Part shown: piece after piece, positions 1 through 60,276 of the stretch | How the letters are laid out: each line of letters begins with the position of its first letter | Numbering within the stretch: position 1 is the first letter of the stretch | Source of the DNA: Pempheris klunzingeri | Lineage: Eukaryota > Chordata > Actinopteri > Acropomatiformes > Pempheridae | Length of the DNA stretch: 64,000 nt | Assembly (NCBI RefSeq): GCF_042242105.1 | Contig: NC_092012.1 | Location: 28,062,978-28,126,977, forward strand | Direction of reading: 5' to 3' | Notes under the pieces: generated by a model | The model's database searches: none | Told to the model about the DNA's origin: nothing | What the model saw: the letters and a program-made list of their open reading frames with translations, nothing else | Program-made: the position numbers and the translations under genes

Positions 1-490
1 ACCTTCACATATTTTTCGCTGGGTTTCACTTGGTTGTTTTTCACCTTTTGTAGTGCTGTGGAGTGGTTTTCTATCAGCTGGTCCCCAATCAAGATTTTGC
101 GGCACTTTGCACATGGGTGATGCGATACTCGGTCCGACCAATGCTGTCACAACATGCCACTCATCAATGGGTGGCGCTAACGTGACAAAATATGGTGCAA
201 CGTGAAAGCAAAGGCACGCAAGAAGAAGACTGCTAGCTCGTGCACATGGATTTAAATAACTCAGGGCTTGTTCACTTTAGTAATCGACTCAAAACTCTAT
301 AAACTGGCCTAAGTCTATAATGCATGTGGTGTCTTCGAATAGGTGCTTGATATATGTGGCATCGTCTTGACGAAAGTCGACCACATGCAACAGCCAGATG
401 ACGCTCCTGTGGCCTACTTGGTCAAAGTTTGCCACAGATATTGCTTCAAGCTTGACATTGTGCAAGTGTGGCACTAAAGGTTATCTTTTG

Positions 491-563
491 CGCCCAATGG
501 GGGGCTCGAACCCACGACCCTGAGATTAAGAGTCTCATGCTCTACCGACTGAGCTAACCGGGC
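491..563 (-). tRNA. tRNA-Lys(CTT), array copy 1
   Basis: The minus strand folds as a 73-nt cloverleaf. The acceptor stem GCCCGGT pairs with ATTGGGC using two G-U pairs, with discriminator G. The D arm is GCTC/GAGC. The anticodon stem is TGAGA/TCTCA with loop CTCTTAA and anticodon CTT, which reads AAG (Lys). The T loop is TTCGAGC. A box (TAGCTCAGTCGG) and B box (GGTTCGAGCCC) are both present, so internal Pol III promotion is expected. CCA is not encoded and no intron is present, so this is not a retroposed tRNA. In this copy the T stem reads CCCCC instead of CCCAC on its 3' side, which puts a T-C mismatch at pair 50-64. Confidence 0.93.
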
Positions 564-973
564 CACAATTACTCTTCAAAAGCAGCCTTTTTCGCTCCTG
601 TGATGATAAAACCTTCACATATTTTTCGCTGGGTTTCACTTGGTTGTTTTTCACCTTTTGTAGTGCTGTGGAGTGGTTTTCTATCAGCTGGTCCCCAATC
701 AAGATTTTGCGGCACTTTGCACATGGGTGATGCGATACTCGGTCCGACCAATGCTGTCACAACATGCCACTCATCAATGTTAAGATTAAGCTTGACATTC
801 ATGTGCATGTGGTGTCTTCGAATAGGTGCTTGATATATGTGGCATCGTCTTGACGAAAGTCGACCACATGCAACAGCCAGATGACGCTCCCGTGGCCTAC
901 TTGGTCAAAGTTTGCCACAGATATTGCTTCAAGCTTGACATTGTGCAAGTGTGGCACTAAAGGTTATCTTTTG

Positions 974-1046
974 CGCCCAATGTGGGGCTCGAACCCACGA
1001 CCCTGAGATTAAGAGTCTCATGCTCTACCGACTGAGCTAACCGGGC
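974..1046 (-). tRNA. tRNA-Lys(CTT), array copy 2
   Basis: Array consensus sequence with a fully paired T stem. The spacer downstream of its 3' end (563-974 on the plus strand) lacks about 127 bp found in the other spacers, so the nearest run of four T on the transcribed strand lies about 360 nt away (plus-strand AAAA near 607-610). Confidence 0.95.
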
Positions 1047-1583
1047 CACAATTACTCTTCAAAAGCAGCCTTTTTCGCTCCTGTGATGATAAAACCTTCA
1101 CATGTTTTTCGCTGGGTTTCACTTGGTTGTTTTTCACCTTTTGTAGTGCTGTGGAGTGGTTTTCTATCAGCTGGTCCCCAATCAAGATTTTGCGGCACTT
1201 TGCACATGGGTGATGCGATACTCGGTCCGACCAATGCTGTCACAACATGCCACTCATCAATGGGTGGCGCTAACGTGACAAAATATGGTGCAACGTGAAA
1301 GCAAAGGCACGCAAGAAGAAGACTGCTAGCTCGTGCACATGGAGTTAAATAACTCAGGGCTTGTTCACTTTAGTAATCGACTCAAAACTCTATAAACTGG
1401 CCTAAGTCTATAATGCATGTGGTGTCTTCGAATAGGTGCTTGATATATGTGGCATCGTCTTGACGAAAGTCGACCACATGCAACAGCCAGATGACGCTCC
1501 CGTGGCCTACTTGGTCAAAGTTTGCCACAGATATTGCTTCAAGCTTGACATTGTGCAAGTGTGGCACTAAAGGTTATCTTTTG

Positions 1584-1656
1584 CGCCCAATGTGGGGCTC
1601 GAACCCACGACCCTGAGATTAAGAGTCTCATGCTCTACCGACTGAGCTAACCGGGC
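1584..1656 (-). tRNA. tRNA-Lys(CTT), array copy 3
   Basis: Array consensus sequence. The 5' flank reads ACAATGAC on the plus strand instead of the usual ACAATTAC, a marker shared with copies 9, 10, 13 and 17. Confidence 0.96.
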
Positions 1657-2176
1657 CACAATGACTCTTCAAAAGCAGCCTTTTTCGCTCCTGTGATGAT
1701 AAAACCTTCACATATTTTTCGCTGGGTTTCACTTGGTTGTTTTTCACCTTTTGTAGTGCTGTGGAGCGGTTTTCTATCAGCTGGTCCCCAATCAAGATTA
1801 TGCGGCACTTTGCACATGGGTGATGGGATACTCGGTCCGACCAATGCTGTCACAACATGCCACTCATCAATGGGTGGCGCTAACGTGACAAAATATGGTG
1901 CAACGTGAAAGCAAAGGCACGCAAGAAGAAGACTGCTAGCTCGTGCACATGGAGTTAAATAACTCAGGGCTTGTTCACTTTAGTAATCGACTCTGAAAAC
2001 TCTATAAACTGGGCTAAGTCTATAATGCATGTGGTGTCTTCGAATAGGTGCTTGATATATGTGGCATCATCTTGACGAAAGTCGACCACATGCAACAGCC
2101 TACTTGGTCAAAGTTTGCCACAGATGTTGCTTCAAGCTTGACATTGTGCAAGTGTGGCACTAAAGGTTATCTTTTG

Positions 2177-2249
2177 CGCCCAATGTGGGGCTCGAACCCA
2201 CGACCCTGAGATTAAGAGTCTCATGCTCTACCGACTGAGCTAACCGGGC
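2177..2249 (-). tRNA. tRNA-Lys(CTT), array copy 4
   Basis: Array consensus sequence. The spacer between copies 3 and 4 has the 19-bp deletion and the 2-bp CTG-type insertion (593-bp period), the same type as the spacer between copies 9 and 10. Confidence 0.96.
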
Positions 2250-2776
2250 CACAATTACTCTTCAAAAGCAGCCTTTTTCGCTCCTGTGATGATAAAACCT
2301 TCACATATTTTTCGCTGGGTTTCACTTGGTTGTTTTTCACCTTTTGTAGTGCTGTGGAGCGGTTTTCTATCAGCTGGTCCCCAATCAAGATTTTGCGGCA
2401 GTTTGCACATGGGTGATGCGATACTCGGTCCGACCAATGTTGTCACAACATGCCACTCATCAATGGGTGGCGCTAACGTGACAAAATATGGTGCAACGTG
2501 AACGCAAGAAGAAGACTGCTAGCTCGTGCACATGGAGTTAAATAACTCAGGGCTTGTTCACTTTAGTAATCGACTCAAAACTCTATAAACTGGCCTAAGT
2601 CTATAATGCATGTGGTGTCTTCGAATAGGTGCTTGATATATGTGGCATCGTCTTGACGAAAGTCGACCACATGCAAACGCCAGATGGGGCTCCTGTGGCC
2701 TACTTGGTCAAAGTTTGCCGCAGATGTTGCTTCAAGCTTGACATTGTGCAAGTGTGGCACTAAAGGTTATCTTTTG

Positions 2777-2849
2777 CGCCCAATGTGGGGCTCGAACCCA
2801 CGACCCTGAGATTAAGAGTCTCATGCTCTACCGACTGAGCTAACCGGGC
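2777..2849 (-). tRNA. tRNA-Lys(CTT), array copy 5
   Basis: Array consensus sequence. The unit to its left is the 600-bp type, lacking 10 bp of the AAAGCAAAGGCACGC stretch. Confidence 0.96.
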
Positions 2850-3386
2850 CACAATTACTCTTCAAAAGCAGCCTTTTTCGCTCCTGTGATGATAAAACCT
2901 TCACATATTTTTCGCTGGGTTTCACTTGGTTGTTTTTCACCTTTTGTAGTGCTGTGGAGCGGTTTTCTATCAGCTGGTCCCCAATCAAGATTATGCGGCA
3001 CTTTGCACATGGGTGATGGGATACTCGGTCCGACCAATGCTGTCACAACATGCCACTCATCAATGGGTGGCGCTAACGTGACAAAATATGGTGCAACGTG
3101 AAAGCAAAGGCACGCAAGAAGAAGACTGCTAGCTCGTGCACATGGAGTTAAATAACTCAGGGCTTGTTCACTTTAGTAATCGACTCAAAACTCTATAAAC
3201 TGGCCTAAGTCTATAATGCATGTGGTGTCTTCGAATAGGTGCTTGATATATGTGGCATCGTCTTGACGAAAGTCGACCACATGCAACAGCCAGATGACGC
3301 TCCCGTGGCCTACTTGGTCAAAGTTTGCCACAGATATTGCTTCAAGCTTGACATTGTGCAAGTGTGGCACTAAAGGTTATCTTTTG

Positions 3387-3459
3387 CGCCCAATGTGGGG
3401 CTCGAACCCACGACCCTGAGATTAAGAGTCTCATGCTCTACCGACTGAGCTAACCGGGC
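3387..3459 (-). tRNA. tRNA-Lys(CTT), array copy 6
   Basis: Array consensus sequence. First of a run of four 610-bp periods (copies 5 to 9) that look almost identical, a recently homogenised block. Confidence 0.96.
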
Positions 3460-3996
3460 CACAATTACTCTTCAAAAGCAGCCTTTTTCGCTCCTGTGAT
3501 GATAAAACCTTCACATATTTTTCGCTGGGTTTCACTTGGTTGTTTTTCACCTTTTGTAGTGCTGTGGAGCGGTTTTCTATCAGCTGGTCCCCAATCAAGA
3601 TTATGCGGCACTTTGCACATGGGTGATGGGATACTCGGTCCGACCAATGCTGTCACAACATGCCACTCATCAATGGGTGGCGCTAACGTGACAAAATATG
3701 GTGCAACGTGAAAGCAAAGGCACGCAAGAAGAAGACTGCTAGCTCGTGCACATGGAGTTAAATAACTCAGGGCTTGTTCACTTTAGTAATCGACTCAAAA
3801 CTCTATAAACTGGCCTAAGTCTATAATGCATGTGGTGTCTTCGAATAGGTGCTTGATATATGTGGCATCGTCTTGACGAAAGTCGACCACATGCAACAGC
3901 CAGATGACGCTCCCGTGGCCTACTTGGTCAAAGTTTGCCACAGATATTGCTTCAAGCTTGACATTGTGCAAGTGTGGCACTAAAGGTTATCTTTTG

Positions 3997-4069
3997 CGCC
4001 CAATGTGGGGCTCGAACCCACGACCCTGAGATTAAGAGTCTCATGCTCTACCGACTGAGCTAACCGGGC
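3997..4069 (-). tRNA. tRNA-Lys(CTT), array copy 7
   Basis: Array consensus sequence. Part of the run of 610-bp units. Confidence 0.96.
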
Positions 4070-4606
4070 CACAATTACTCTTCAAAAGCAGCCTTTTTCG
4101 CTCCTGTGATGATAAAACCTTCACATATTTTTCGCTGGGTTTCACTTGGTTGTTTTTCACCTTTTGTAGTGCTGTGGAGCGGTTTTCTATCAGCTGGTCC
4201 CCAATCAAGATTATGCGGCACTTTGCACATGGGTGATGGGATACTCGGTCCGACCAATGCTGTCACAACATGCCACTCATCAATGGGTGGCGCTAACGTG
4301 ACAAAATATGGTGCAACGTGAAAGCAAAGGCACGCAAGAAGAAGACTGCTAGCTCGTGCACATGGAGTTAAATAACTCAGGGCTTGTTCACTTTAGTAAT
4401 CGACTCAAAACTCTATAAACTGGCCTAAGTCTATAATGCATGTGGTGTCTTCGAATAGGTGCTTGATATATGTGGCATCGTCTTGACGAAAGTCGACCAC
4501 ATGCAACAGCCAGATGACGCTCCTGTGGCCTACTTGGTCAAAGTTTGCCACAGATATTGCTTCAAGCTTGACATTGTGCAAGTGTGGCACTAAAGGTTAT
4601 CTTTTG

Positions 4607-4679
4607 CGCCCAATGTGGGGCTCGAACCCACGACCCTGAGATTAAGAGTCTCATGCTCTACCGACTGAGCTAACCGGGC
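4607..4679 (-). tRNA. tRNA-Lys(CTT), array copy 8
   Basis: Array consensus sequence. Part of the run of 610-bp units. Confidence 0.96.
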
Positions 4680-5216
4680 CACAATTACTCTTCAAAAGCA
4701 GCCTTTTTCGCTCCTGTGATGATAAAACCTTCACATATTTTTCGCTGGGTTTCACTTGGTTGTTTTTCACCTTTTGTAGTGCTGTGGAGTGGTTTTCTAT
4801 CAGCTGGTCCCCAATCAAGATTTTGCGGCAGTTTGCACATGGGTGATGCGATACTCGGTCCGACCAATGCTGTCACAACATGCCACTCATCAATGGGTGG
4901 CGCTAACGTGACAAAATATGGTGCAACGTGAAAGCAAAGGCACGCAAGAAGAAGACTGCTAGCTCGTGCACATGGAGTTAAATAACTCAGGGCTTGTTCA
5001 CTTTAGTAATCGACTCAAAACTCTATAAACTGGCCTAAGTCTATAATGCATGTGGTGTCTTCGAATAGGTGCTTGATATATGTGGCATCGTCTTGACGAA
5101 AGTCGACCACATGCAACAGCCAGATGACGCTCCCGTGGCCTACTTGGTCAAAGTTTGCCACAGATATTGCTTCAAGCTTGACATTGTGCAAGTGTGGCAC
5201 TAAAGGTTATCTTTTG

Positions 5217-5289
5217 CGCCCAATGTGGGGCTCGAACCCACGACCCTGAGATTAAGAGTCTCATGCTCTACCGACTGAGCTAACCGGGC
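5217..5289 (-). tRNA. tRNA-Lys(CTT), array copy 9
   Basis: Array consensus sequence. Its 5' flank carries the ACAATGAC marker, and the next unit is the same 593-bp type that follows copy 3, so the copy 3/4 and copy 9/10 units are sister duplicates 3,633 bp apart. Confidence 0.96.
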
Positions 5290-5809
5290 CACAATGACTC
5301 TTCAAAAGCAGCCTTTTTCGCTCCTGTGATGATAAAACCTTCACATATTTTTCGCTGGGTTTCACTTGGTTGTTTTTCACCTTTTGTAGTGCTGTGGAGC
5401 GGTTTTCTATCAGCTGGTCCCCAATCAAGATTATGCGGCACTTTGCACATGGGTGATGGGATACTCGGTCCGACCAATGCTGTCACAACATGCCACTCAT
5501 CAATGGGTGGCGCTAACGTGACAAAATATGGTGCAACGTGAAAGCAAAGGCACGCAAGAAGAAGACTGCTAGCTCGTGCACATGGAGTTAAATAACTCAG
5601 GGCTTGTTCACTTTAGTAATCGACTCTGAAAACTCTATAAACTGGGCTAAGTCTATAATGCATGTGGTGTCTTCGAATAGGTGCTTGATATATGTGGCAT
5701 CATCTTGACGAAAGTCGACCACATGCAACAGCCTACTTGGTCAAAGTTTGCCACAGATGTTGCTTCAAGCTTGACATTGTGCAAGTGTGGCACTAAAGGT
5801 TATCTTTTG

Positions 5810-5882
5810 CGCCCAATGTGGGGCTCGAACCCACGACCCTGAGATTAAGAGTCTCATGCTCTACCGACTGAGCTAACCGGGC
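5810..5882 (-). tRNA. tRNA-Lys(CTT), array copy 10
   Basis: Array consensus sequence with the ACAATGAC flank marker. The next period is 612 bp. Confidence 0.96.
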
Positions 5883-6421
5883 CACAATGACTCTTCAAAA
5901 GCAGCCTTTTTCGCTCCTGTGATGATAAAACCTTCACATATTTTTCGCTGGGTTTCACTTGGTTGTTTTTCACCTTTTGTAGTGCTGTGGAGCGGTTTTC
6001 TATCAGCTGGTCCCCAATCAAGATTATGCGGCACTTTGCACATGGGTGATGCGATACTCGGTCCGACCAATGCTGTCACAACATGCCACTCATCAATGGG
6101 TGGCGCTAACGTGACAAAATATGGTGCAACGTGAAAGCAAAGGCACGCAAGAAGAAGACTGCTAGCTCGTGCACATGGAGTTAAATAACTCAGGGCTTGT
6201 TCACTTTAGTAATCGACTCTGAAAACTCTATAAACTGGGCTAAGTATATAATGCATGCAGGGTCTTCGAATAGGTGCTTGATATATGTGGCATCGTCTTG
6301 ACGAAAGTCAACCACATGCAAACGCCAGATGGGGCTCCTGTGGCCTACTTGGTCAAAGTTTGCCGCAGATGTTGCTTCAAGCTTGACATTGTGCAAGTGT
6401 GGCACTAAAGGTTATCTTTTG

Positions 6422-6494
6422 CGCCCAATGTGGGGCTCGAACCCACGACCCTGAGATTAAGAGTCTCATGCTCTACCGACTGAGCTAACCGGGC
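6422..6494 (-). tRNA. tRNA-Lys(CTT), array copy 11
   Basis: Array consensus sequence. Opens the first of two 2,388-bp higher-order blocks with periods 610-591-587-600. Confidence 0.96.
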
Positions 6495-7031
6495 CACAAT
6501 TACTCTTCAAAAGCATCCTTTTTCGCTCCTGTGATGATAAAACCTTCACATATTTTTCGCTGGGTTTCACTTGGTTGTTTTTCACCTTTTGTAGTGCTGT
6601 GGAGTGGTTTTCTATCAGCTGGTCCCCAATCAAGATTTTGCGGCAGTTTGCACATGGGTGATGCGATACTCGGTCCGACCAATGCTGTCACAACATGCCA
6701 CTCATCAATGGGTGGCGCTAACGTGACAAAATATGGTGCAACGTGAAAGCAAAGGCACGCAAGAAGAAGACTGCTAGCTCGTGCACATGGAGTTAAATAA
6801 CTCAGGGCTTGTTCACTTTAGTAATCGACTCAAAACTCTATAAACTGGCCTAAGTCTATAATGCATGTGGTGTCTTCGAATAGGTGCTTGATATATGTGG
6901 CATCGTCTTGACGAAAGTCGACCACATGCAACAGCCAGATGACGCTCCTGTGGCCTACTTGGTCAAAGTTTGCCACAGATATTGCTTCAAGCTTGACATT
7001 GTGCAAGTGTGGCACTAAAGGTTATCTTTTG

Positions 7032-7104
7032 CGCCCAATGGGGGGCTCGAACCCACGACCCTGAGATTAAGAGTCTCATGCTCTACCGACTGAGCTAACC
7101 GGGC
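7032..7104 (-). tRNA. tRNA-Lys(CTT), array copy 12
   Basis: Full length, with the same T-stem change as copies 1 and 19 (3' side CCCCC, one T-C mismatch at pair 50-64). The rest of the cloverleaf is intact. Confidence 0.92.
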
Positions 7105-7622
7105 CACAATTACTCTTCAAAAGCAGCCTTTTTCGCTCCTGTGATGATAAAACCTTCACATATTTTTCGCTGGGTTTCACTTGGTTGTTTTTCACCTTTT
7201 GTAGTGCTGTGGAGTGGTTTTCTATCAGCTGGTCCCCAATCAAGATTTTGCGGCAGTTTGCACATGGGTGATGCGATACTCGGTCCGACCAATGCTGTCA
7301 CAACATGCCACTCATCAATGGGTGGCGCTAACGTGACAAAATATGGTGCAACGTGAAAGCAAAGGCACGCAAGAAGAAGACTGCTAGCTCGTGCACATGG
7401 AGTTAAATAACTCAGGGCTTGTTCACTTTAGTAATCGACTCAAAACTCTATAAACTGGCCTAAGTCTATAATGCATGTGGTGTCTTCGAATAGGTGCTTG
7501 ATATATGTGGCATCGTCTTGACGAAAGTCGACCACATGCAACAGCCTACTTGGTCAAAGTTTGCCACAGATGTTGCTTCAAGCTTGACATTGTGCAAGTG
7601 TGGCACTAAAGGTTATCTTTTG

Positions 7623-7695
7623 CGCCCAATGTGGGGCTCGAACCCACGACCCTGAGATTAAGAGTCTCATGCTCTACCGACTGAGCTAACCGGGC
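7623..7695 (-). tRNA. tRNA-Lys(CTT), array copy 13
   Basis: Array consensus sequence. The spacer on its 5' side (plus-strand right) has the 25-bp deletion near 7770, where TTTCATTACTAAGAGC replaces the longer stretch. Confidence 0.96.
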
Positions 7696-8209
7696 CACAA
7701 TGACTCTTCAAAAGCATCCTTTTTCGCTCCTGTGATGATAAAACCTTCACATATTTTTCGCTGGGTTTCATTACTAAGAGCGGTTTTCTATCAGCTGGTC
7801 CCCAATCAAGATCATGCGGCACTTTGCACATGGGTGATGCGATACTCGGTCCGACCAATGCTGTCACAACATGCCACTCATCAATGGGTGGCGCTAACGT
7901 GACAAAATATGGTGCAACGTGAAAGCAAAGGCACGCAAGAAGAAGACTGCTAGCTCGTGCACATGGAGTTAAATAACTCAGGGCTTGTTCACTTTAGTAA
8001 TCGACTCTGAAAACTCTATAAACTGGGCTAAGTCTATAATGCATGCAGGGTCTTCGAATAGGTGCTTGATATATGTGGCATCGTCTTGACGAAAGTCGAC
8101 CACATGCAAACGCCAGATGGGGCTCCTGTGGCCTACTTGGTCAAAGTTTGCCGCAGATGTTGCTTCAAGCTTGACATTGTGCAAGTGTGGCACTAAAGGT
8201 TATCTTTTG

Positions 8210-8282
8210 CGCCCAATGTGGGGCTCGAACCCACGACCCTGAGATTAAGAGTCTCATGCTCTACCGACTGAGCTAACCAGGC
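8210..8282 (-). tRNA. tRNA-Lys(CTT), array copy 14
   Basis: Full length. Acceptor base 4 is T instead of C, giving a T-G pair at 4-69, which is tolerated in RNA. The same change occurs in copy 18, exactly one 2,388-bp block away. Confidence 0.94.
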
Positions 8283-8809
8283 CACAATTACTCTTCAAAA
8301 GCAGCCTTTTTCGCTCCTGTGATGATAAAACCTTCACATATTTTTCGCTGGGTTTCACTTGGTTGTTTTTCACCTTTTGTAGTGCTGTGGAGCGGTTTTC
8401 TATCAGCTGGTCCCCAATCAAGATTTTGCGGCAGTTTGCACATGGGTGATGCGATACTCGGTCCGACCAATGTTGTCACAACATGCCACTCATCAATGGG
8501 TGGCGCTAACGTGACAAAATATGGTGCAACGTGAACGCAAGAAGAAGACTGCTAGCTCGTGCACATGGAGTTAAATAACTCAGGGCTTGTTCACTTTAGT
8601 AATCGACTCAAAACTCTATAAACTGGCCTAAGTCTATAATGCATGTGGTGTCTTCGAATAGGTGCTTGATATATGTGGCATCGTCTTGACGAAAGTCGAC
8701 CACATGCAAACGCCAGATGGGGCTCCTGTGGCCTACTTGGTCAAAGTTTGCCGCAGATGTTGCTTCAAGCTTGACATTGTGCAAGTGTGGCACTAAAGGT
8801 TATCTTTTG

Positions 8810-8882
8810 CGCCCAATGTGGGGCTCGAACCCACGACCCTGAGATTAAGAGTCTCATGCTCTACCGACTGAGCTAACCGGGC
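8810..8882 (-). tRNA. tRNA-Lys(CTT), array copy 15
   Basis: Array consensus sequence. Opens the second 2,388-bp higher-order block. Confidence 0.96.
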
Positions 8883-9419
8883 CACAATTACTCTTCAAAA
8901 GCAGCCTTTTTCGCTCCTGTGATGATAAAACCTTCACATATTTTTCGCTGGGTTTCACTTGGTTGTTTTTCACCTTTTGTAGTGCTGTGGAGCGGTTTTC
9001 TATCAGCTGGTCCCCAATCAAGATTATGCGGCACTTTGCACATGGGTGATGGGATACTCGGTCCGACCAATGCTGTCACAACATGCCACTCATCAATGGG
9101 TGGCGCTAACGTGACAAAATATGGTGCAACGTGAAAGCAAAGGCACGCAAGAAGAAGACTGCTAGCTCGTGCACATGGAGTTAAATAACTCAGGGCTTGT
9201 TCACTTTAGTAATCGACTCAAAACTCTATAAACTGGCCTAAGTCTATAATGCATGTGGTGTCTTCGAATAGGTGCTTGATATATGTGGCATCGTCTTGAC
9301 GAAAGTCGACCACATGCAACAGCCAGATGACGCTCCCGTGGCCTACTTGGTCAAAGTTTGCCACAGATATTGCTTCAAGCTTGACATTGTGCAAGTGTGG
9401 CACTAAAGGTTATCTTTTG

Positions 9420-9492
9420 CGCCCAATGTGGGGCTCGAACCCACGACCCTGAGATTAAGAGTCTCATGCTCTACCGACTGAGCTAACCGGGC
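9420..9492 (-). tRNA. tRNA-Lys(CTT), array copy 16
   Basis: Array consensus sequence. Equivalent in block position to copy 12 but without its T-stem mismatch. Confidence 0.96.
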
Positions 9493-10010
9493 CACAATTA
9501 CTCTTCAAAAGCAGCCTTTTTCGCTCCTGTGATGATAAAACCTTCACATATTTTTCGCTGGGTTTCACTTGGTTGTTTTTCACCTTTTGTAGTGCTGTGG
9601 AGTGGTTTTCTATCAGCTGGTCCCCAATCAAGATTTTGCGGCAGTTTGCACATGGGTGATGCGATACTCGGTCCGACCAATGCTGTCACAACATGCCACT
9701 CATCAATGGGTGGCGCTAACGTGACAAAATATGGTGCAACGTGAAAGCAAAGGCACGCAAGAAGAAGACTGCTAGCTCGTGCACATGGAGTTAAATAACT
9801 CAGGGCTTGTTCACTTTAGTAATCGACTCAAAACTCTATAAACTGGCCTAAGTCTATAATGCATGTGGTGTCTTCGAATAGGTGCTTGATATATGTGGCA
9901 TCGTCTTGACGAAAGTCGACCACATGCAACAGCCTACTTGGTCAAAGTTTGCCACAGATGTTGCTTCAAGCTTGACATTGTGCAAGTGTGGCACTAAAGG
10001 TTATCTTTTG

Positions 10011-10083
10011 CGCCCAATGTGGGGCTCGAACCCACGACCCTGAGATTAAGAGTCTCATGCTCTACCGACTGAGCTAACCGGGC
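10011..10083 (-). tRNA. tRNA-Lys(CTT), array copy 17
   Basis: Array consensus sequence. The spacer to its right has the same 25-bp deletion as the one next to copy 13. Confidence 0.96.
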
Positions 10084-10597
10084 CACAATGACTCTTCAAA
10101 AGCATCCTTTTTCGCTCCTGTGATGATAAAACCTTCACATATTTTTCGCTGGGTTTCATTACTAAGAGCGGTTTTCTATCAGCTGGTCCCCAATCAAGAT
10201 TATGCGGCACTTTGCACATGGGTGATGCGATACTCGGTCCGACCAATGCTGTCACAACATGCCACTCATCAATGGGTGGCGCTAACGTGACAAAATATGG
10301 TGCAACGTGAAAGCAAAGGCACGCAAGAAGAAGACTGCTAGCTCGTGCACATGGAGTTAAATAACTCAGGGCTTGTTCACTTTAGTAATCGACTCTGAAA
10401 ACTCTATAAACTGGGCTAAGTCTATAATGCATGCAGGGTCTTCGAATAGGTGCTTGATATATGTGGCATCGTCTTGACGAAAGTCGACCACATGCAAACG
10501 CCAGATGGGGCTCCTGTGGCCTACTTGGTCAAAGTTTGCCGCAGATGTTGCTTCAAGCTTGACATTGTGCAAGTGTGGCACTAAAGGTTATCTTTTA

Positions 10598-10670
10598 CGC
10601 CCAATGTGGGGCTCGAACCCACGACCCTGAGATTAAGAGTCTCATGCTCTACCGACTGAGCTAACCAGGC
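10598..10670 (-). tRNA. tRNA-Lys(CTT), array copy 18
   Basis: Full length. It shares the T4-G69 acceptor pair with copy 14. The first base after the discriminator is T instead of C on the transcribed strand. Confidence 0.94.
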
Positions 10671-11197
10671 CACAATTACTCTTCAAAAGCAGCCTTTTTC
10701 GCTCCTGTGATGATAAAACCTTCACATATTTTTCGCTGGGTTTCACTTGGTTGTTTTTCACCTTTTGTAGTGCTGTGGAGCGGTTTTCTATCAGCTGGTC
10801 CCCAATCAAGATTTTGCGGCAGTTTGCACATGGGTGATGCGATACTCGGTCCGACCAATGTTGTCACAACATGCCACTCATCAATGGGTGGCGCTAACGT
10901 GACAAAATATGGTGCAACGTGAACGCAAGAAGAAGACTGCTAGCTCGTGCACATGGAGTTAAATAACTCAGGGCTTGTTCACTTTAGTAATCGACTCAAA
11001 ACTCTATAAACTGGCCTAAGTCTATAATGCATGTGGTGTCTTCGAATAGGTGCTTGATATATGTGGCATCGTCTTGACGAAAGTCGACCACATGCAAACG
11101 CCAGATGGGGCTCCTGTGGCCTACTTGGTCAAAGTTTGCCGCAGATGTTGCTTCAAGCTTGACATTGTGCAAGTGTGGCACTAAAGGTTATCTTTTG

Positions 11198-11270
11198 CGC
11201 CCAATGGGGGGCTCGAACCCACGACCCTGAGATTAAGAGTCTCATGCTCTACCGACTGAGCTAACCGGGC
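11198..11270 (-). tRNA. tRNA-Lys(CTT), array copy 19
   Basis: Full length, with the T-stem 50-64 mismatch also seen in copies 1 and 12. Confidence 0.92.
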
Positions 11271-11807
11271 CACAATTACTCTTCAAAAGCAGCCTTTTTC
11301 GCTCCTGTGATGATAAAACCTTCACATATTTTTCGCTGGGTTTCACTTGGTTGTTTTTCACCTTTTGTAGTGCTGTGGAGTGGTTTTCTATCAGCTGGTC
11401 CCCAATCAAGATTTTGTGGCACTTTGCACATGGGTGATGCGATACTCGGTCCGACCAATGCTGTCACAACATGCCACTCATCAATGGGTGGCGCTAACGT
11501 GACAAAATATGGTGCAACGTGAAAGCAAAGGCACGCAAGAAGAAGACTGCTAGCTCGTGCACATGGAGTTAAATAACTCAGGGCTTGTTCACTTTAGTAA
11601 TCGACTCAAAACTCTATAAACTGGCCTAAGTCTATAATGCATGTGGTGTCTTCGAATAGGTGCTTGATATATGTGGCATCGTCTTGACGAAAGTCGACCA
11701 CATGCAACAGCCAGATGACGCTCCTGTGGCCTACTTGGTCAAAGTTTGCCACAGATATTGCTTCAAGCTTGACATTGTGCAAGTGTGGCACTAAAGGTTA
11801 TCTTTTG

Positions 11808-11880
11808 CGCCCAATGTGGGGCTCGAACCCACGACCCTGAGATTAAGAGTCTCATGCTCTACCGACTGAGCTAACCGGGC
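11808..11880 (-). tRNA. tRNA-Lys(CTT), array copy 20
   Basis: Array consensus sequence. The next period is 612 bp. Confidence 0.96.
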
Positions 11881-12419
11881 CACAATTACTCTTCAAAAGC
11901 AGCCTTTTTCGCTCCTGTGATGATAAAACCTTCACATATTTTTCGCTGGGTTTCACTTGGTTGTTTTTCACCTTTTGTAGTGCTGTGGAGCGGTTTTCTA
12001 TCAGCTGGTCCCCAATCAAGATTATGCGGCACTTTGCACATGGGTGATGCGATACTCGGTCCGACCAATGCTGTCACAACATGCCACTCATCAATGGGTG
12101 GCGCTAACGTGACAAAATATGGTGCAACGTGAAAGCAAAGGCACGCAAGAAGAAGACTGCTAACTCGTGCACATGGAGTTAAATAACTCAGGGCTTGTTC
12201 ACTTTAGTAATCGACTCTGAAAACTCTATAAACTGGGCTAAGTCTATAATGCATGTGGTGTCTTCGAATAGGTGCTTGATATATGTGGCATCGTCTTGAC
12301 GAAAGTCGACCACATGCAACAGCCAGATGACGCTCCTGTGGCCTACTTGGTCAAAGTTTGCCAGAGATGTTGCTTCAAGCTTGACATTGTGCAAGTGTGG
12401 CACTAAAGGTTATCTTTTG

Positions 12420-12492
12420 CGCCCAATGTGGGGCTCGAACCCACGACCCTGAGATTAAGAGTCTCATGCTCTACCGACTGAGCTACCCGGGC
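12420..12492 (-). tRNA. tRNA-Lys(CTT), array copy 21
   Basis: Full length, but acceptor base 7 is G instead of T, giving a G-A mismatch at the base of the acceptor stem (7-66). A and B boxes are intact. Confidence 0.9.
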
Positions 12493-13021
12493 CACAATTA
12501 CTCTTCAAAAGCATCCTTTTTCGCTCCTGTGATGATAAAACCTTCACATATTTTTCGCTGGGTTTCACTTGGTTGTTTTTCACCTTTTCTAGTGCTGTGG
12601 AGCGGTTTTCTATCAGCTGGTCCCCAATCAAGATTTTGCGGCAGTTTGCACATGGGTGATGCGATACTCGGTCCGACCAATGCTGTCACAACATGCCACT
12701 CATCAATGGGTGGTGCTAACGTGACAAAATATGGTGCAACGTGAACGCAAGAAGAAGACTGCTAGCTCGTGCACATGGAGTTAAATAACTCAGGGCTTGT
12801 TCACTTTAGTAATCGACTCTGAAAACTCTATAAACTGGGCTAAGTGTATAATGCATGCAGGGTCTTCGAATAGGTGCTTGATATATGTGGCATCGTCTTG
12901 ACGAAAGTCGACCACATGCAAACGCCAGATGGGGCTCCTGTGGCCTACTTGGTCAAAGTTTGCCGCAGATGTTGCTTCAAGCTTGACATTGTGCAAGTGT
13001 GGCACTAAAGGTTATCTTTTG

Positions 13022-13094
13022 CGCCCAATGTGGGGCTCGAACCCACGACCCTGAGATTAAGAGTCTCATGCTCTACCGACTGAGCTAACCGGGC
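13022..13094 (-). tRNA. tRNA-Lys(CTT), array copy 22
   Basis: Array consensus sequence. Confidence 0.96.
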
Positions 13095-13621
13095 CACAAT
13101 TACTCTTCAAAAGCAGCCTTTTTCGCTCCTGTGATGATAAAACCTTCACATATTTTTCGCTGGGTTTCACTTGGTTGTTTTTCACCTTTTGTAGTGCTGT
13201 GGAGCGGTTTTCTATCAGCTGGTCCCCAATCAAGATTTTGCGGCAGTTTGCACATGGGTGATGCGATACTCGGTCCGACCAATGTTGTCACAACATGCCA
13301 CTCATCAATGGGTGGCGCTAACGTGACAAAATATGGTGCAACGTGAACGCAAGAAGAAGACTGCTAGCTCGTGCACATGGAGTTAAATAACTCAGGGCTT
13401 GTTCACTTTAGTAATCGACTCAAAACTCTATAAACTGGCCTAAGTCTATAATGCATGTGGTGTCTTCGAATAGGTGCTTGATATATGTGGCATCGTCTTG
13501 ACGAAAGTCGACCACATGCAACAGCCAGATGACGCTCCTGTGGCCTACTTGGTCAAAGTTTGCCACAGATATTGCTTCAAGCTTGACATTGTGCAAGTGT
13601 GGCACTAAAGGTTATCTTTTG

Positions 13622-13694
13622 CGCCCAATGTGGGGCTCGAACCCACGACCCTGAGATTAAGAGTCTCATGCTCTACCGACTGAGCTAACCGGGC
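13622..13694 (-). tRNA. tRNA-Lys(CTT), array copy 23
   Basis: Array consensus sequence. Opens a block with periods 612-600-600 (1,812 bp) that is repeated at copy 26. Confidence 0.96.
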
Positions 13695-14233
13695 CACAAT
13701 TACTCTTCAAAAGCAGCCTTTTTCGCTCCTGTGATGATAAAACCTTCACATATTTTTCGCTGGGTTTCACTTGGTTGTTTTTCACCTTTTGTAGTGCTGT
13801 GGAGCGGTTTTCTATCAGCTGGTCCCCAATCAAGATTATGCGGCACTTTGCACATGGGTGATGCGATACTCGGTCCGACCAATGCTGTCACAACATGCCA
13901 CTCATCAATGGGTGGCGCTAACGTGACAAAATATGGTGCAACGTGAAAGCAAAGGCACGCAAGAAGAAGACTGCTAACTCGTGCACATGGAGTTAAATAA
14001 CTCAGGGCTTGTTCACTTTAGTAATCGACTCTGAAAACTCTATAAACTGGGCTAAGTCTATAATGCATGTGGTGTCTTCGAATAGGTGCTTGATATATGT
14101 GGCATCGTCTTGACGAAAGTCGACCACATGCAACAGCCAGATGACGCTCCTGTGGCCTACTTGGTCAAAGTTTGCCAGAGATGTTGCTTAAAGCTTGACA
14201 TTGTGCAAGTGTGGCACTAAAGGTTATCTTTTG

Positions 14234-14306
14234 CGCCCAATGTGGGGCTCGAACCCACGACCCTGAGATTAAGAGTCTCATGCTCTACCGACTGAGCTAA
14301 CCGGGC
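14234..14306 (-). tRNA. tRNA-Lys(CTT), array copy 24
   Basis: Array consensus sequence. Confidence 0.96.
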
Positions 14307-14833
14307 CACAATTACTCTTCAAAAGCAGCCTTTTTCGCTCCTGTGATGATAAAACCTTCACATATTTTTCGCTGGGTTTCACTTGGTTGTTTTTCACCTT
14401 TTGTAGTGCTGTGGAGCGGTTTTCTATCAGCTGGTCCCCAATCAAGATTTTGCGGCAGTTTGCACATGGGTGATGCGATACTCGGTCCGACCAATGTTGT
14501 CACAACATGCCACTCATCAATGGGTGGCGCTAACGTGACAAAATATGGTGCAACGTGAACGCAAGAAGAAGACTGCTAGCTCGTGCACATGGAGTTAAAT
14601 AACTCAGGGCTTGTTCACTTTAGTAATCGACTCAAAACTCTATAAACTGGCCTAAGTCTATAATGCATGTGGTGTCTTCGAATAGGTGCTTGATATATGT
14701 GGCATCGTCTTGACGAAAGTCGACCACATGCAACAGCCAGATGACGCTCCTGTGGCCTACTTGGTCAAAGTTTGCCAGAGATGTTGCTTCAAGCTTGACA
14801 TTGTGCAAGTGTGGCACTAAAGGTTATCTTTTG

Positions 14834-14906
14834 CGCCCAATGTGGGGCTCGAACCCACGACCCTGAGATTAAGAGTCTCATGCTCTACCGACTGAGCTAA
14901 CCGGGC
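14834..14906 (-). tRNA. tRNA-Lys(CTT), array copy 25
   Basis: Array consensus sequence. Confidence 0.96.
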
Positions 14907-15433
14907 CACAATTACTCTTCAAAAGCAGCCTTTTTCGCTCCTGTGATGATAAAACCTTCACATATTTTTCGCTGGGTTTCACTTGGTTGTTTTTCACCTT
15001 TTGTAGTGCTGTGGAGCGGTTTTCTATCAGCTGGTCCCCAATCAAGATTTTGCGGCAGTTTGCACATGGGTGATGCGATACTCGGTCCGACCAATGTTGT
15101 CACAACATGCCACTCATCAATGGGTGGCGCTAACGTGACAAAATATGGTGCAACGTGAACGCAAGAAGAAGACTGCTAGCTCGTGCACATGGAGTTAAAT
15201 AACTCAGGGCTTGTTCACTTTAGTAATCGACTCAAAACTCTATAAACTGGCCTAAGTCTATAATGCATGTGGTGTCTTCGAATAGGTGCTTGATATATGT
15301 GGCATCGTCTTGACGAAAGTCGACCACATGCAACAGCCAGATGACGCTCCTGTGGCCTACTTGGTCAAAGTTTGCCACAGATATTGCTTCAAGCTTGACA
15401 TTGTGCAAGTGTGGCACTAAAGGTTATCTTTTG

Positions 15434-15506
15434 CGCCCAATGTGGGGCTCGAACCCACGACCCTGAGATTAAGAGTCTCATGCTCTACCGACTGAGCTAA
15501 CCGGGC
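15434..15506 (-). tRNA. tRNA-Lys(CTT), array copy 26
   Basis: Array consensus sequence. Opens the second 612-600-6xx block. Confidence 0.96.
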
Positions 15507-16045
15507 CACAATTACTCTTCAAAAGCAGCGTTTTTCGCTCCTGTGATGATAAAACCTTCACATATTTTTCGCTGGGTTTCACTTGGTTGTTTTTCACCTT
15601 TTGTAGTGCTGTGGAGCGGTTTTCTATCAGCTGGTCCCCAATCAAGATTATGCGGCACTTTGCACATGGGTGATGCGATACTCGGTCCGACCAATGCTGT
15701 CACAACATGCCACTCATCAATGGGTGGCGCTAACGTGACAAAATATGGTGCAACGTGAAAGCAAAGGCACGCAAGAAGAAGACTGCTAACTCGTGCACAT
15801 GGAGTTAAATAACTCAGGGCTTGTTCACTTTAGTAATCGACTCTGAAAACTCTATAAACTGGGCTAAGTCTATAATGCATGTGGTGTCTTCGAATAGGTG
15901 CTTGATATATGTGGCATCGTCTTGACGAAAGTCGACCACATGCAACAGCCAGATGACGCTCCTGTGGCCTACTTGGTCAAAGTTTGCCAGAGATGTTGCT
16001 TCAAGCTTGACATTGTGCAAGTGTGGCACTAAAGGTTATCTTTTG

Positions 16046-16118
16046 CGCCCAATGTGGGGCTCGAACCCACGACCCTGAGATTAAGAGTCTCATGCTCTAC
16101 CGACTGAGCTAACCGGGC
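16046..16118 (-). tRNA. tRNA-Lys(CTT), array copy 27
   Basis: Array consensus sequence. Confidence 0.96.
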
Positions 16119-16645
16119 CACAATTACTCTTCAAAAGCAGCCTTTTTCGCTCCTGTGATGATAAAACCTTCACATATTTTTCGCTGGGTTTCACTTGGTT
16201 GTTTTTCACCTTTTCTAGTGCTGTGGAGCGGTTTTCTATCAGCTGGTCCCCAATCAAGATTTTGCGGCAGTTTGCACATGGGTGATGCGATACTCGGTCC
16301 GACCAATGTTGTCACAACATGCCACTCATCAATGGGTGGCGCTAACGTGACAAAATATGGTGCAACGTGAACGCAAGAAGAAGACTGCTAGCTCGTGCAC
16401 ATGGAGTTAAATAACTCAGGGCTTGTTCACTTTAGTAATCGACTCAAAACTCTATAAACTGGCCTAAGTCTATAATGCATGTGGTGTCTTCGAATAGGTG
16501 CTTGATATATGTGGCATCGTCTTGACGAAAGTCGACCACATGCAACAGCCAGATGACGCTCCTGTGGCCTACTTGGTCAAAGTTTGCCACAGATATTGCT
16601 TCAAGCTTGACATTGTGCAAGTGTGGCACTAAAGGTTATCTTTTG

Positions 16646-16718
16646 CGCCCAATGTGGGGCTCGAACCCACGACCCTGAGATTAAGAGTCTCATGCTCTAC
16701 CGACTGAGCTAACCGGGC
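16646..16718 (-). tRNA. tRNA-Lys(CTT), array copy 28
   Basis: Array consensus sequence; the last full-length copy. The spacer to its left is a near copy of the one to its right. Confidence 0.96.
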
Positions 16719-17247
16719 CACAATTACTCTTCAAAAGCAGCCTTTTTCGCTCCTGTGATGATAAAACCTTCACATATTTTTCGCTGGGTTTCACTTGGTT
16801 GTTTTTCACCTTTTCTAGTGCTGTGGAGCGGTTTTCTATCAGCTGGTCCCCAATCAAGATTTTGCGGCAGTTTGCACATGGGTGATGCGATACTCGGTCC
16901 GACCAATGTTGTCACAACATGCCACTCATCAATGGGTGGCGCTAACGTGACAAAATATGGTGCAACGTGAACGCAAGAAGAAGACTGCTAGCTCGTGCAC
17001 ATGGAGTTAAATAACTCAGGGCTTGTTCACTTTAGTAATCAACTCTGAAAACTCTATAAACTGGGCTAAGTCTATAATGCATGCAGGGTCTTCGAATAGG
17101 TGCTTGATATATGTGGCATCGTCTTGACGAAAGTCGACCACATGCAAACGCCAGATGGGGCTCCTGTGGCCTACTTGGTCAAAGTTTGCCGCAGATGTTG
17201 CTTCAAGCTTGACATTGTGCAAGTGTGGCACTAAAGGTTATCTTTTG

Positions 17248-17314
17248 CGCCCAATGTGGGGCTCGAACCCACGACCCTAAGAGTCTCATGCTCTACTGAC
17301 TGAGCTAACCGGGC
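17248..17314 (-). pseudogene. tRNA-Lys(CTT) pseudogene at the array edge (copy 29)
   Basis: Six bases (AATCTC on the tRNA strand) are missing, which removes the 3' half of the anticodon stem and leaves 67 nt. One G in the conserved D-loop GG is also changed to A. The 5' half of the anticodon arm and the B box remain. It cannot form a normal anticodon arm. It lies about 120 bp from the point where the array is cut, as expected for an edge copy no longer corrected by exchange with its neighbours. Confidence 0.93.
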
Positions 17315-17435
17315 CACAACTACTCTTCAAAAGCATCCTTTTTCGCTCCTGTGATGATAAAACCTTCACATATTTTTCGCTGGGTTTCACTTGGTTGTTT
17401 TTCACCTTTTGTAGTGCTGTGGAGTGGTTTTCTAT

Positions 17436-20400
17436 TCCGTCGAGGCTTGGACCTCCGGACGGACTGATGGGGGATGTCATGAGAAAAGAAAAGAAAGAAA
17501 AAAAAAAAAAAGGGAAAAAGAGGAAAAGGTTTGACATGTTTGTCTGTATGGTGTTCGAAATATGGGTTCCCAGAATATGACTCTTAGTATGAATGAACTG
17601 AAAAATACTGTAGGAAAGATTGGAGAAGCGAGACAAAGGATAGGAGAAGGAAAAGGAAAGTGTTCTGTAAAAGATTTAGAAGATGTGGAGAAACATATTA
17701 AGTGCCTCATAGTGTGGGAGAAGGAAGCGGAAAGTAGGGACAGAAAGCGTACAGCAAGTTGTTAAAGTGATTGTATGAATGATGTGAAACCTGACGATAA
17801 ACCTGAAGTAATACAAACTTCGCACGCACTTGATTGTCCTTCCGCATACTCGCAGCCTGTTTCTGCCTTTTTTATCCGCAGCTCACCGCTCTGAAGCTGG
17901 ACCCCGACCTCAACAACACTGCGCTGCCCCGTCGTCAACAACAAGCCGCTACAACACCACCTCCCTCCCATGAACATCAATGGAACAGTTTTTTTTTTTT
18001 TGTAGCTCAGTTAAAATGAATTTTGCCGTCAATTCCAGCCCACAATGCCTGAAATAAAATGCCTTCTGGGTAAGAAAGTTTCTGCTACGGACTTTTCCAA
18101 GGTTGCTGACAAAAGCAACGGCCATGAACACATCACACACCCTGACTGGGACCATCAGGATAACGCTGCATACAAACAAGCGCTAAAGACACTAACAGAC
18201 GTCATTACCACTGCCTTCTCTGTTAAAAAGTTGACATGAGCAAAATCACAACATGCACGCAAAATCATTCGGAAACTCTGTGAAGACCTCCTGTGTATGC
18301 TACACTGAAGCAAGATTAAATGAAATCTGCCGACATGCCATTCACGCCGACCAACAGCTGATGGAGAAGAAACAAATACAGGAAAAGAAAAAAAACACCC
18401 GGATTTATCTTCCTTTGGTCAGCACTTTGGTCACCACCTCACACATCGGATTTACATACAGGCGCCAGTGGAGAGGGAGGAGTTCCAGAATCAGGTCACA
18501 TACACACACACACACAGGTCACACACACACAGGGCACACACACACAGTACACACACACACACACACACACAGGACACATACAGGTCACACACATACAGGA
18601 CACACACAGGACACACACAGGACACCCACACACACAGGACACATGCAGGTCACACACATACAGGACACACACACACACAGAGGTCACACACACACAGGAC
18701 ACACACACACACAGGACACACACACACACACAGGTCACACACACACACACACACACACACTGTGTTGCAATGGAGAACCTGCTTCTGCTATGTAATATCT
18801 TAGACAACAGCTGACACCCCCTATAGGCACATATACAAAGTACAATAAGGAGACATGTTACAGAAAGCCGATGTAAACATTAACCATTTCTGGACATGAT
18901 TCTCTCCTTTTTAGTCGACTTGGGTGCCACATACAGTGTTTTGAAAGCTGATGCTCTGCTAAGCTAATGATAGGTGTACCCTCTGCTAAACAATGTGAAT
19001 GTGACACTGTTGAAACACCTAGCTGAAAGAGACCACAAAGCTAGCCAATCAAAATTTCAATTTGTGAAACAAGAAGTAACATTTCTAGGACATGCTATCT
19101 CTTCCACAGGGCAAATTTCTCTCTCTCTCTCAAAAAAAAAGGAACTGAAGCCAATCACAGACAAAAAGCAAATGATGTCCTTACTGTGAATGTGTTCTTA
19201 CTGTCACACATTCATTCAAAACTTTGCCATTATAGATAAACCACTCCGTGAGCTCACAATAGGCCTTCTCCATGCGCATGCGCCCCCTGACCCGGACTGA
19301 CAAAGCCAACAGCTGACTACTCTAGTCTTGCCTGACTCGACTCGACCCTTCATACATACTGTAGACGAACGACAAGATTGCATGACTTCTGTGCTTTTGC
19401 AGGACCATGGAGGAAAAACTGTGCCCTGTGGCGTATTTTCTCTGCAAAACTTGACCCTGTGGCTGCAGCACTCCCTCATTGTCTTCGTGCTGTCGCAGCA
19501 GCTGAGAAGGCTGTGCTGGCATCACAGGGTATTGTGTTTTATGCTCCTCTCACCCTGCCTGTTCCTCACTCTGTATGTCAACTCCTCCTCGAGCAGAAAA
19601 CATCTAACCTCTCTGCTGCTCGATGGCTACAGTATCACTCTCTGTTCCTTGAGATGCCAAACATCACCATCAAACAATGTGTCTCTCTCAATCCAGCAAC
19701 TCTCCTCCCTCTTCCAGATGATGGCAAGCCAAATGACTGTGTGGCTGCAGTCCAACAACTCTGTACCCCTTGTATAGATCTGTCTGCTTAACCTCTAACT
19801 AATCCTGACTTGATTCTTTTTGTAGATGGCTCAGCTTCCCGGGACCCCACTACAGGACAAAACTGTGTGGGTTTTGCTGTGTGCTCTCAAACTGAAACTC
19901 TTGCTTCAGGTTCTCTCCCCTCTTATTTCTCTGCTCAAAAAAAAAAACTGAACTTGTAGCGCTCACTGAAACCTGTAAAATTGCAAAAGGGAAATCTGTT
20001 ACTATACATACAGATTCCAGGTATGTCTTTGGAGTTGTTCATGATTTTGGTACCCTCTGGAAACAAAGGGACTTCATTACCTCCTCAGGCACACCTATTT
20101 CCAATGCTCAACAAGTGTCTGATCTTCTCAAAGCCATTCTTTTGCCTTCCTCTATTGCTGTCTGCAAGTGTGCTGCTCACACCAGCAACTCTGACCCTAT
20201 TTCCACAGGCAACGCTGGTGCAGATGCAGCTGCTAAGGTTGCTGCAAAGAACAGTGGAAGTTTTCCCCTCCATCTCACCTCTGACATTTTTGTTTCTCTC
20301 CCTCTTGACTGATGATCCACTTCTCTCCATACAGCAGTTTGCCACTGGGGATGAAAAGGCATTGTGGCACAAATGCAATGCTATGTTTCCCCCACAGTTG

Positions 20401-21636
20401 TATGGATTGGCCCTGACAGCAAGCCATGCCTACCCAAACATTTCTTTTCACATTATGCCCATTTGACACACGGTTCTGACCATGTGTCAAAAAGGGACGA
20501 ATGTTGGATCAGATTTCACAGTCTTGGTTCACTAATACAGTCTTGGTTCACTAAAGAATTTTCAGTTGCAGCTCAAAATGTTTTGTAAAAAAAAAAAAAA
20601 AAACACCCCCCCCCCCAACCTGCATCATTTCAATGATGGAGACTGGATGGTCATCAGAAATTTCCAACAACGCCACTGAAAGCACAAACATTGGCTAGGT
20701 CTGTTCCAGATTCTCCTAACCACACACACGGCCATAAAGACCTCCGGAAGATTCACCTGGATCCACACTAGCCACTGCAGAAAGGTCCCAACTCCACCTG
20801 GGGACATCTCTCCTCCTGTGCACCAACTTGAAACCACAAGAGAGTGCACAGGAGTGAACACTCGCTCTCGCATGAGACGAGACTGCGTTGATTCTTCCTA
20901 ACACTAAGTGCGAGCCAAGCGCCGCTTAGCGTTGCACCGGTGAAACACATAATGCACATACACAATCCAGAGAATACAGGTACACAAGTAGACCTGATCT
21001 GCCCAAGTTGGACAACGGTGGAACGCGGACGTGGACGCCGATGGAATTTGTGTAAACAGCCTAGGCTGCATGGAACTTGATCACACCCCCAACTCTTTGC
21101 AAAATGTGTCCATACTCCAGAAAGACAGCATTATTTTCTCATGAATAATTTATGATGACAAACCTTAAATCTACCTGAGATTTACCTGAGGTTTTGTTTG
21201 ATGTAATATTCTTGATGTTAATATTGTGATTAATGTATAATCAAAAGGGAGGAATTGTGAAGGGAATTTGCATGTCAGAAGACAAAGAAATGTAAATTCT
21301 CAGTTTGATCCACCAGGGTGTGTCCCGACCAGACGACAGAAGAAAGAGGTGTTAAAACATTTGGTCTTTCAGGATGCATCCCGGTGAGGTATGAAACAAA
21401 GGGGTGTTAAAGTAACGTCTGATCAACAGGACGTGTATTGTCTTGCATATCCCAGGATCTACAGGCCAACCCCCAAGCCTACAGGTCCTCACCTCATAAA
21501 AAGCAACACAGACAGAAACTCAGGGAACACTGTTTTCAGAACTATTTTGACTGCATGATTGTCTCTGTAACAGCTGTTCCTTTCTGCAAAAATAAATGCG
21601 CACAAGAAACTCCATGCAACAGACTTTATCTCCTAG
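17436..21636 (+). mobile_element. Broken retroviral fossil (class I / epsilon-gamma-like), 3' LTR present
   Basis: Pieces of a retroviral gag-pol order lie on the plus strand. There is a gag-like stretch at about 17.55-18.25 kb, a protease-like stretch near 18.91 kb, the end of a reverse transcriptase (FVKQEVTFLGHAIS) near 19.07 kb and an RNase H stretch (LFVDGSASRDP) near 19.82 kb. A polypurine tract ends at 21254, directly before TGTGAAGG, where a probable 3' LTR of about 380 bp runs from 21256 to about 21636 with a TATA-like and an AATAAA-like site. I see no 5' LTR and no recognisable env. A long CA array sits in the middle. It is clearly dead, with many breaks. The family is inferred from motif style only. 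It joins the tRNA array abruptly at 17435/17436. Confidence 0.75.
18497..18760. repeat. Compound CA microsatellite
   Basis: About 260 bp of (CA)n broken by repeated ACACAGGACACA and CACAGGTCACA variants. It creates open frames of His/Thr or Cys/Val repeats on both strands that have no coding meaning. Confidence 0.97.
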
Positions 21637-22055
21637 AAAAGGTTATCTTTTGCACCCAATGTAGGGCTCAAACTCACAATCCTGAGATTAAGAGTCTAAT
21701 ACTCTACCAACTGAGCTAACCAGGCCACAATTACTCTTCAAAAGCATCCTTTTTCGCACCTGTGATGATAAAACCTTCACACATTTTTCGCTGAGTTTCA
21801 CTTGCTTGTTTTTCACCTTTTGTAGTGCTGTGGAGCGGCTTTTATCAGCTGGTCCCCAATCAAGATTTTGTGCAAGTTTGTACATGGGTGATGCGATACT
21901 TGGTCCGACCAATGGTGTCACATTATGCCACTCATCAATGGGTGGCGCTAACATGACAAGATATGATGCAACGTGAAACAGCCAGATGGCAAGAAGAAGA
22001 CTGCTAGCTCGTGAACATGGAACTAAATAACTCAGTACTTGTTTACTTTACAAGC
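21637..22055 (-). repeat. Isolated, diverged copy of the tRNA-Lys unit
   Basis: From GGTTATCTTTTGC near 21641 to the GACTGCTAGCTCGTGAACATGG block near 22018 and a little beyond, the sequence follows the array unit in the same order and orientation, with many substitutions and small indels. It ends where array units would read CACTTTAGTAATCGAC. It lies 4.2 kb from the array edge, beyond the retroviral fossil, and is much older-looking than any array copy. Confidence 0.9.
21653..21725 (-). pseudogene. tRNA-Lys(CTT) relic
   Basis: It has the 73-nt length and the CTT anticodon of the array tRNA but differs at about 10 positions. Changes include a T-stem mismatch and loss of the invariant C56 in the T loop/B box (GTTTGAGCC). 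Most changes are C-to-T or G-to-A, as expected from CpG decay. Expected to be silent. Confidence 0.88.

Positions 22056-58654: not shown

Positions 58655-60276
<1,622 letters not shown>

Follow-up and report, generated by a model that had tools for sequence, protein, structure and literature searches.

A single-isoacceptor tandem array of tRNA-Lys(CTT) genes in the teleost Pempheris klunzingeri, probably a gene bank

Background

Tandem clusters of transfer RNA genes (tDNAs) have been described from teleosts, Xenopus and Nematostella, and the accessible part of that survey (PMC2888827) reports teleost clusters of fifty and more members, with 87% of tDNAs clustered in stickleback, and tDNA pairs that are mostly heterogeneous in zebrafish and clawed frog. 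Tandem units carrying tRNA genes are also known from human 1q23.3, where they form a variable number tandem repeat (VNTR; PMC4041453), and from the protist Entamoeba (PMC2652664). Here we describe a locus of this general kind from the genome assembly of Pempheris klunzingeri (GCF_042242105.1): a tandem array of tRNA-Lys(CTT) genes that occupies positions 1-17435, minus strand, of a stretch of 64,000 nucleotides on contig NC_092012.1 (C1:28062978-28126977; hereafter the window) and begins upstream of it.

The array thus belongs to a known kind, the tandem tDNA clusters, and it stands out in three respects together: each 0.6-kb unit has a single gene, every gene is of one isoacceptor, and almost every copy of this isoacceptor recovered from the assembly is here. 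As far as the available text of PMC2888827 goes, it resembles the clusters reported there in that its genes run in parallel, form a large fish cluster and lie less than 1000 nt apart, the distance that defines neighbours in a cluster, at all 27 spacings in the window. Homogeneous neighbours in parallel orientation, an optional subtype of such clusters, are found throughout: all 28 genes of the window and all 15 upstream of it are minus-strand Lys(CTT) genes. This differs from the mostly heterogeneous pairs of zebrafish and clawed frog, the two species for which that text agrees with a remark in the original prediction, made from the letters of the window alone, that arrays in fish and frogs often combine several isoacceptors.

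The human locus, in the portion of PMC4041453 that is accessible, likewise consists of tandem tRNA-gene units that are about 98% identical, and it has endogenous-retrovirus long terminal repeat (LTR) elements at its edges, to which a retrovirus-like remnant at 17436-21637 is comparable here; its unit, however, is 7.3 kb long, carries five tRNA genes of several types and binds CTCF, whereas the present unit is 0.6 kb long with one tRNA-Lys gene. Entamoeba also has tRNA genes as the units of tandem arrays, with the difference, according to the accessible part of PMC2652664, that units hold up to five tRNA genes with short tandem repeats between them. Among other fish, 2,077 tRNA genes are given for Asian seabass in the available sections of PMC4833346, which contain no mention of such an array, and Dada transposons are reported to insert in tRNA genes, Lys included (PMC8869645, accessible part). 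No description of the present array was found among literature titles and abstract openings, with few subscription journals covered.

Extent and composition of the array

Between positions 490 and 16718 of the window, ARAGORN identifies 28 tRNA-Lys(CTT) genes, all on the minus strand, and each of them is supported by the Rfam model RF00005 (60.8-67.4 bits, the upper value being that of the main array copy). Gene-to-gene spacing is 483-612 bp in all 27 intervals. Window position 1 lies inside a unit and the last unit is broken off at 17435; the 28 full-length tRNA units of the window are flanked by one partial unit on either side. The truncated last unit holds a 29th, damaged tRNA at 17248-17314, on the same strand (49.1 bits in Rfam, with six gap columns inside the tRNA). 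Upstream of the window, 15 further tRNA-Lys(CTT) genes on the minus strand lie within C1:28053000-28062999 (locus L012), and zero array tRNA genes were found in the upstream loci L009-L011. Aligned to one unit, the whole array comprises 43 full-length units over about 26.4 kb, from approximately window position -8965 (about C1:28054012) to 17435. The local sequence covered C1:28023000-28126977, copies farther out being sought by genome-wide searches (646 Mb in 439 contigs) only. Tandem Repeats Finder, which is limited to periods of up to 500, detected just the first pair, of 483 bp. The original prediction of at least 28 full-length genes, one per 0.6-kb unit, of a single isoacceptor and strand, in an array that begins outside the window and runs to 17435, is therefore upheld, ARAGORN and Rfam agreeing on 28 in the window, and the array proves to be larger than the window had revealed.

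One 73-nt tRNA sequence is common to 31 of the 43 copies and to 22 of the 28 in the window (973-1046, 1583-1656, 2176-2249, 2776-2849, 3386-3459, 3996-4069, 4606-4679, 5216-5289, 5809-5882, 6421-6494, 7622-7695, 8809-8882, 9419-9492, 10010-10083, 11807-11880, 13021-13094, 13621-13694, 14233-14306, 14833-14906, 15433-15506, 16045-16118 and 16645-16718). The remaining twelve copies are variants: A64C in four (of which 490-563, 7031-7104 and 11197-11270 are in the window), C4T in three (8209-8282 and 10598-10670 in the window), G49A together with G71A in two, C60T in one, T7G in one (12419-12492, with a G-A mismatch at 7-66) and a damaged copy at the array's edge (45.4 bits, one gap and four changes). 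Every helix pair is kept in the C4T and C60T copies; one or two are broken by A64C, G49A/G71A and T7G. An intact cloverleaf with a CTT anticodon, as expected of a functional gene, is consequently retained in 35 of the 43 copies, wobble pairs counted. The main sequence contains the internal A and B boxes, TAGCTCAGTCGG and GGTTCGAGCCC, as judged by eye against the consensus, and CCA is absent directly 3' of the tRNA.

The distribution of these sequences in the assembly is strikingly uneven. Across 646 Mb the main 73-mer is found at 31 places, each of them in the array, and the reversed 73-mer, searched as a control, occurs zero times, so the array is not a product of chance. When the interior of the gene is searched for (a 58-mer, positions 8-65, with up to three mismatches), 43 matches are recovered: 42 in the array (28 in the window and 14 upstream, the damaged edge copy lying beyond the mismatch limit) and one on C23, at a stringency that more diverged Lys(CTT) genes could escape. 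Nearly all Lys(CTT) sequences recovered from the assembly are thus those of the array.

The C23 gene (C23:5955533-5955605, 65.1 bits) is identical to the main array sequence at 71 of 73 bases, and the sole difference is at pair 7-66, which is C-G on C23 and U-A in the array. Because positions 7 and 66 pair with one another, the two changes compensate. Covariation at this pair is seen among seven array-type sequences, the outlier described below included, and two others, with a shuffle control that is weak on its own. The C23 gene is adjoined by tRNA-Asn(GTT) genes, and global alignment of its flanks with those of the array gives scattered identities. Its sequence probably matches that of a human tRNA-Lys(CTT).

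Two small homogeneous clusters of other isoacceptors were also observed. One, of the other lysine isoacceptor, consists of six tRNA-Lys(TTT) genes on both strands within 2.6 kb (L015:3580-6207, corresponding to C11:26524579-26527206), and the other of five tRNA-Cys(GCA) genes on one strand within 2.5 kb (L020:2234-4724, or C7:2430233-2432723).

Homogenisation and origin of the repeat unit

Full units are 92.8-100% identical to a reference unit (two units of 483 bp align to it as two pieces), and the partial unit at the left edge of the array is 86% identical. The set is a mosaic of distinct types and varying lengths, in which adjacent units are no closer to one another than random pairs (13.02 against 13.10 differences). 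Units v08-v13 reappear as v23-v28, at a lag of 15, with 0, 0, 0, 0, 1 and 0 differences. A run of six was reached in 0 of 1000 shuffles of unit order, where the longest was four, and runs of two to three units at other lags are within chance. At least one six-unit block has therefore been duplicated, which is the mark of unequal exchange or of multi-unit block duplication. With 43 head-to-tail units and this duplication, the locus also has the character of a satellite or macrosatellite VNTR, that is, of a long array homogenised by unequal exchange.

Decayed pieces of the unit are present past both ends of the array. On the downstream side, homology to the array stops at 17435 and restarts at 21638 with an outlier unit (21638-22050, minus strand) of approximately 89% identity, whose degenerate tRNA at 21652-21725 (42 bits in Rfam; ARAGORN also calls this decayed copy) had gone unnoticed in the original prediction. 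Pieces of an old dispersed repeat extend past the outlier's homology to about position 22152.

A genome-wide search with the spacer yielded 10 matches: the local outlier (89%) and nine pieces at eight places, 76-144 bp long and 70-81% identical; one of the places is on C1, at a distance of 4.5 Mb, and the remaining seven are on other chromosomes. This count is a lower bound because the search skips very common words and missed the array itself. It bears on one way in which the original prediction might have failed, namely a spacer found at thousands of dispersed sites, and nothing approaching that number was returned. The seven loci on other chromosomes match each other, and the C1 locus matches the unit and not the others (E 1e-8). 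Three of the dispersed loci also match the surroundings of the outlier at 22110-22152, outside the array homology, by pieces of 39-44 bp. Within the unit the repeat piece sits 5' of the tRNA (spacer query 162-306). Taken together, these observations suggest that the array unit arose when a truncated old repeat came to stand beside a tRNA-Lys gene and that the two were later amplified as DNA. As CCA is missing after the tRNA, the tRNA was not copied back from a mature tRNA.

In a cross-species search, the frames open by chance in three units of the array and in the outlier matched none of 37 candidates at E 0.001 or better. Viral contigs contained zero exact matches to the 3' 30 bases of the gene, and in a plasmid collection 53 records match, of which, among the 20 matches listed, only query 1-79, the tRNA itself, is covered; neither collection is meant to hold fish, and both are uninformative on related fish.

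Gene bank, satellite or dispersed repeat

The locus is a single-isoacceptor tandem tDNA cluster and, to judge from its sequence, probably a real bank of genes. The amplified segment would have been a single tRNA-Lys(CTT) gene and roughly 0.5 kb of adjoining DNA, part of an old dispersed repeat among it; head-to-tail amplification as DNA would have brought it to some 43 units, and unequal exchange, at least once by a block of six units, would keep them similar. Many copies would serve as templates for RNA polymerase III, directed by their internal A and B boxes, and would add to the pool of tRNA-Lys(CUU) that reads AAG codons. The original prediction had left the choice between a reservoir of tRNA-Lys genes and a satellite that happens to contain one; the former is favoured by the confinement of the main tRNA sequence to the array, where all but one of the 43 interiors resembling Lys(CTT) also lie, and the latter retains the damaged copies and the lack of excess conservation in the tRNA on its side.

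These and several other observations weigh against use of the array, and they would fit a satellite in which most or all copies are silent passengers of an incidental tRNA-Lys gene, the cell being supplied by the C23 gene together with tRNA-Lys(TTT) by wobble, for which six genes are available on C11. We regard this account as rather doubtful, notwithstanding the following. Eight of the 43 copies are damaged (four A64C, two G49A with G71A, one T7G and the edge copy). The tRNA carries no signal of selection within the array, since variable columns amount to 8/73 in the tRNA and 54/539 in the spacer across 43 units (P 0.84), or to 6/73 and 53/539 across 42 units when the edge copy is excluded (P 0.83). 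Among the 28 window units only, the tRNA does appear quieter (nucleotide diversity 0.0056 against 0.0200 in the spacer; variable columns 3/73 against 51/539), and we dropped stronger conservation of the tRNA as an argument given that the variable columns of all 43 units do not differ. In the outlier, the tRNA has changed as much as its flank (10/73 and 33/340). All 28 window genes have only TTT, 12 nt downstream, the first TTTT following at 177-362 nt, unlike the C23 gene with its TTTTT after 6 nt.

A control weakens the last of these points. For only eight of 37 other tRNAs of this genome called by ARAGORN does a TTTT lie in the first 25 nt downstream, a proportion near the 0.20 obtained at random window positions, so its lack, shared by the other 29, does not set the array apart, and an absent terminator was abandoned as proof of pseudogenes. 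These controls, from L001-L003, L005-L008 and L013-L021 (L004, which overlaps L003, was omitted), lie mostly around the best-scored Rfam hits and are uncurated; at least one call (L014 1241, Lys-ctt) is unlike tRNA-Lys by eye, and some may be pseudogenes. As an observation in its own right, the 29 of 37 sampled tRNAs without a near TTTT imply either many pseudogenes or termination at shorter T runs. Also against a satellite are the compensated change at 7-66 and the 35 intact copies, which point to a founder under constraint. Vertebrates usually have several tRNA-Lys(CTT) genes, and a single one (at up to three mismatches) lies outside the array here.

CpG content speaks to neither side cleanly. 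The observed/expected ratio is 0.69 in 42 array windows against a mean of 0.32 in 121 windows outside (95th percentile 0.68), which might be taken as a mark of unmethylated, active DNA. Within the array, however, the transition state is found at 8/46 CpG sites and 22/564 other sites, about 4.5 times as often per site, a further point against use; as CpG sites mutate faster there, youth explains the CpG richness as well as an unmethylated state would, and we do not rely on it.

Two other accounts are far less probable. That an ordinary interspersed repeat, a short interspersed element (SINE) derived from a tRNA, has piled up in tandem is suggested by the old dispersed repeat of which a fragment makes up part of the spacer, yet it is most implausible: a tRNA head followed by a body and tail at many dispersed sites is not what we see, the main 73-mer occurring zero times outside the array, ARAGORN finding a tRNA in none of the nine dispersed spacer loci (L023-L031), and the repeat piece lying 5' of the tRNA, where a SINE body would be directly 3', with no CCA following the tRNA. 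That the assembler multiplied a small cluster or collapsed a larger one could be read from the identity of several units (v03, v20, v21 and v30), and the assembled copy number may indeed be off. As an explanation of the array itself, an artefact of this sort is nevertheless highly improbable, and what the assembly shows on this second possible failing of the original prediction speaks against it: the array lies inside a single contig of 36.7 Mb, the 104 kb joined around it contain 0 N, its units form a mosaic of distinct, non-identical types of varying length, and decayed pieces continue past both ends.

Returning to the gene bank, we tentatively propose a further possibility, namely that nearly the whole tRNA-Lys(CUU) gene set may reside in one concertedly evolving array resembling ribosomal DNA (rDNA), with the compensated, array-specific U7-A66, and that this array, variable in copy number, may hence provide most of the tRNA for AAG codons, a single gene of the old type remaining elsewhere. 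If the array is transcribed, nearly all copies of one isoacceptor would be under the control of a single locus, which would offer a clean natural test of the interplay between tRNA gene number, array recombination and codon use in a vertebrate. U7-A66 separates the transcripts of most array copies from those of the C23 gene in any tRNA-seq data, and this marker offers a direct way to test whether so large a tRNA array in a fish is in use or silent.

Other elements in the window

Between the array and the outlier unit (17436-21637, plus strand) lies what remains of a retrovirus-like element, its ends placed only approximately and its RNase H domain (PF00075) found in 19896-20309. Farther downstream, a reverse transcriptase of retrotransposon type (RVT_1) with an aspartyl protease at 62832-63917 is apparently a second retroelement in the window. 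The frame at 53260-53658 belongs to an uncharacterised protein family with 41 matches, of which the named ones are all from teleost fish (the best named being Trachinotus anak); it has no Pfam match and is perhaps transposon-derived. Finally, an open frame of 362 amino acids, stop to stop, at 58872-59960 encodes a transposase of the Tc1/mariner type with a helix-turn-helix (HTH) like that of Sleeping Beauty.

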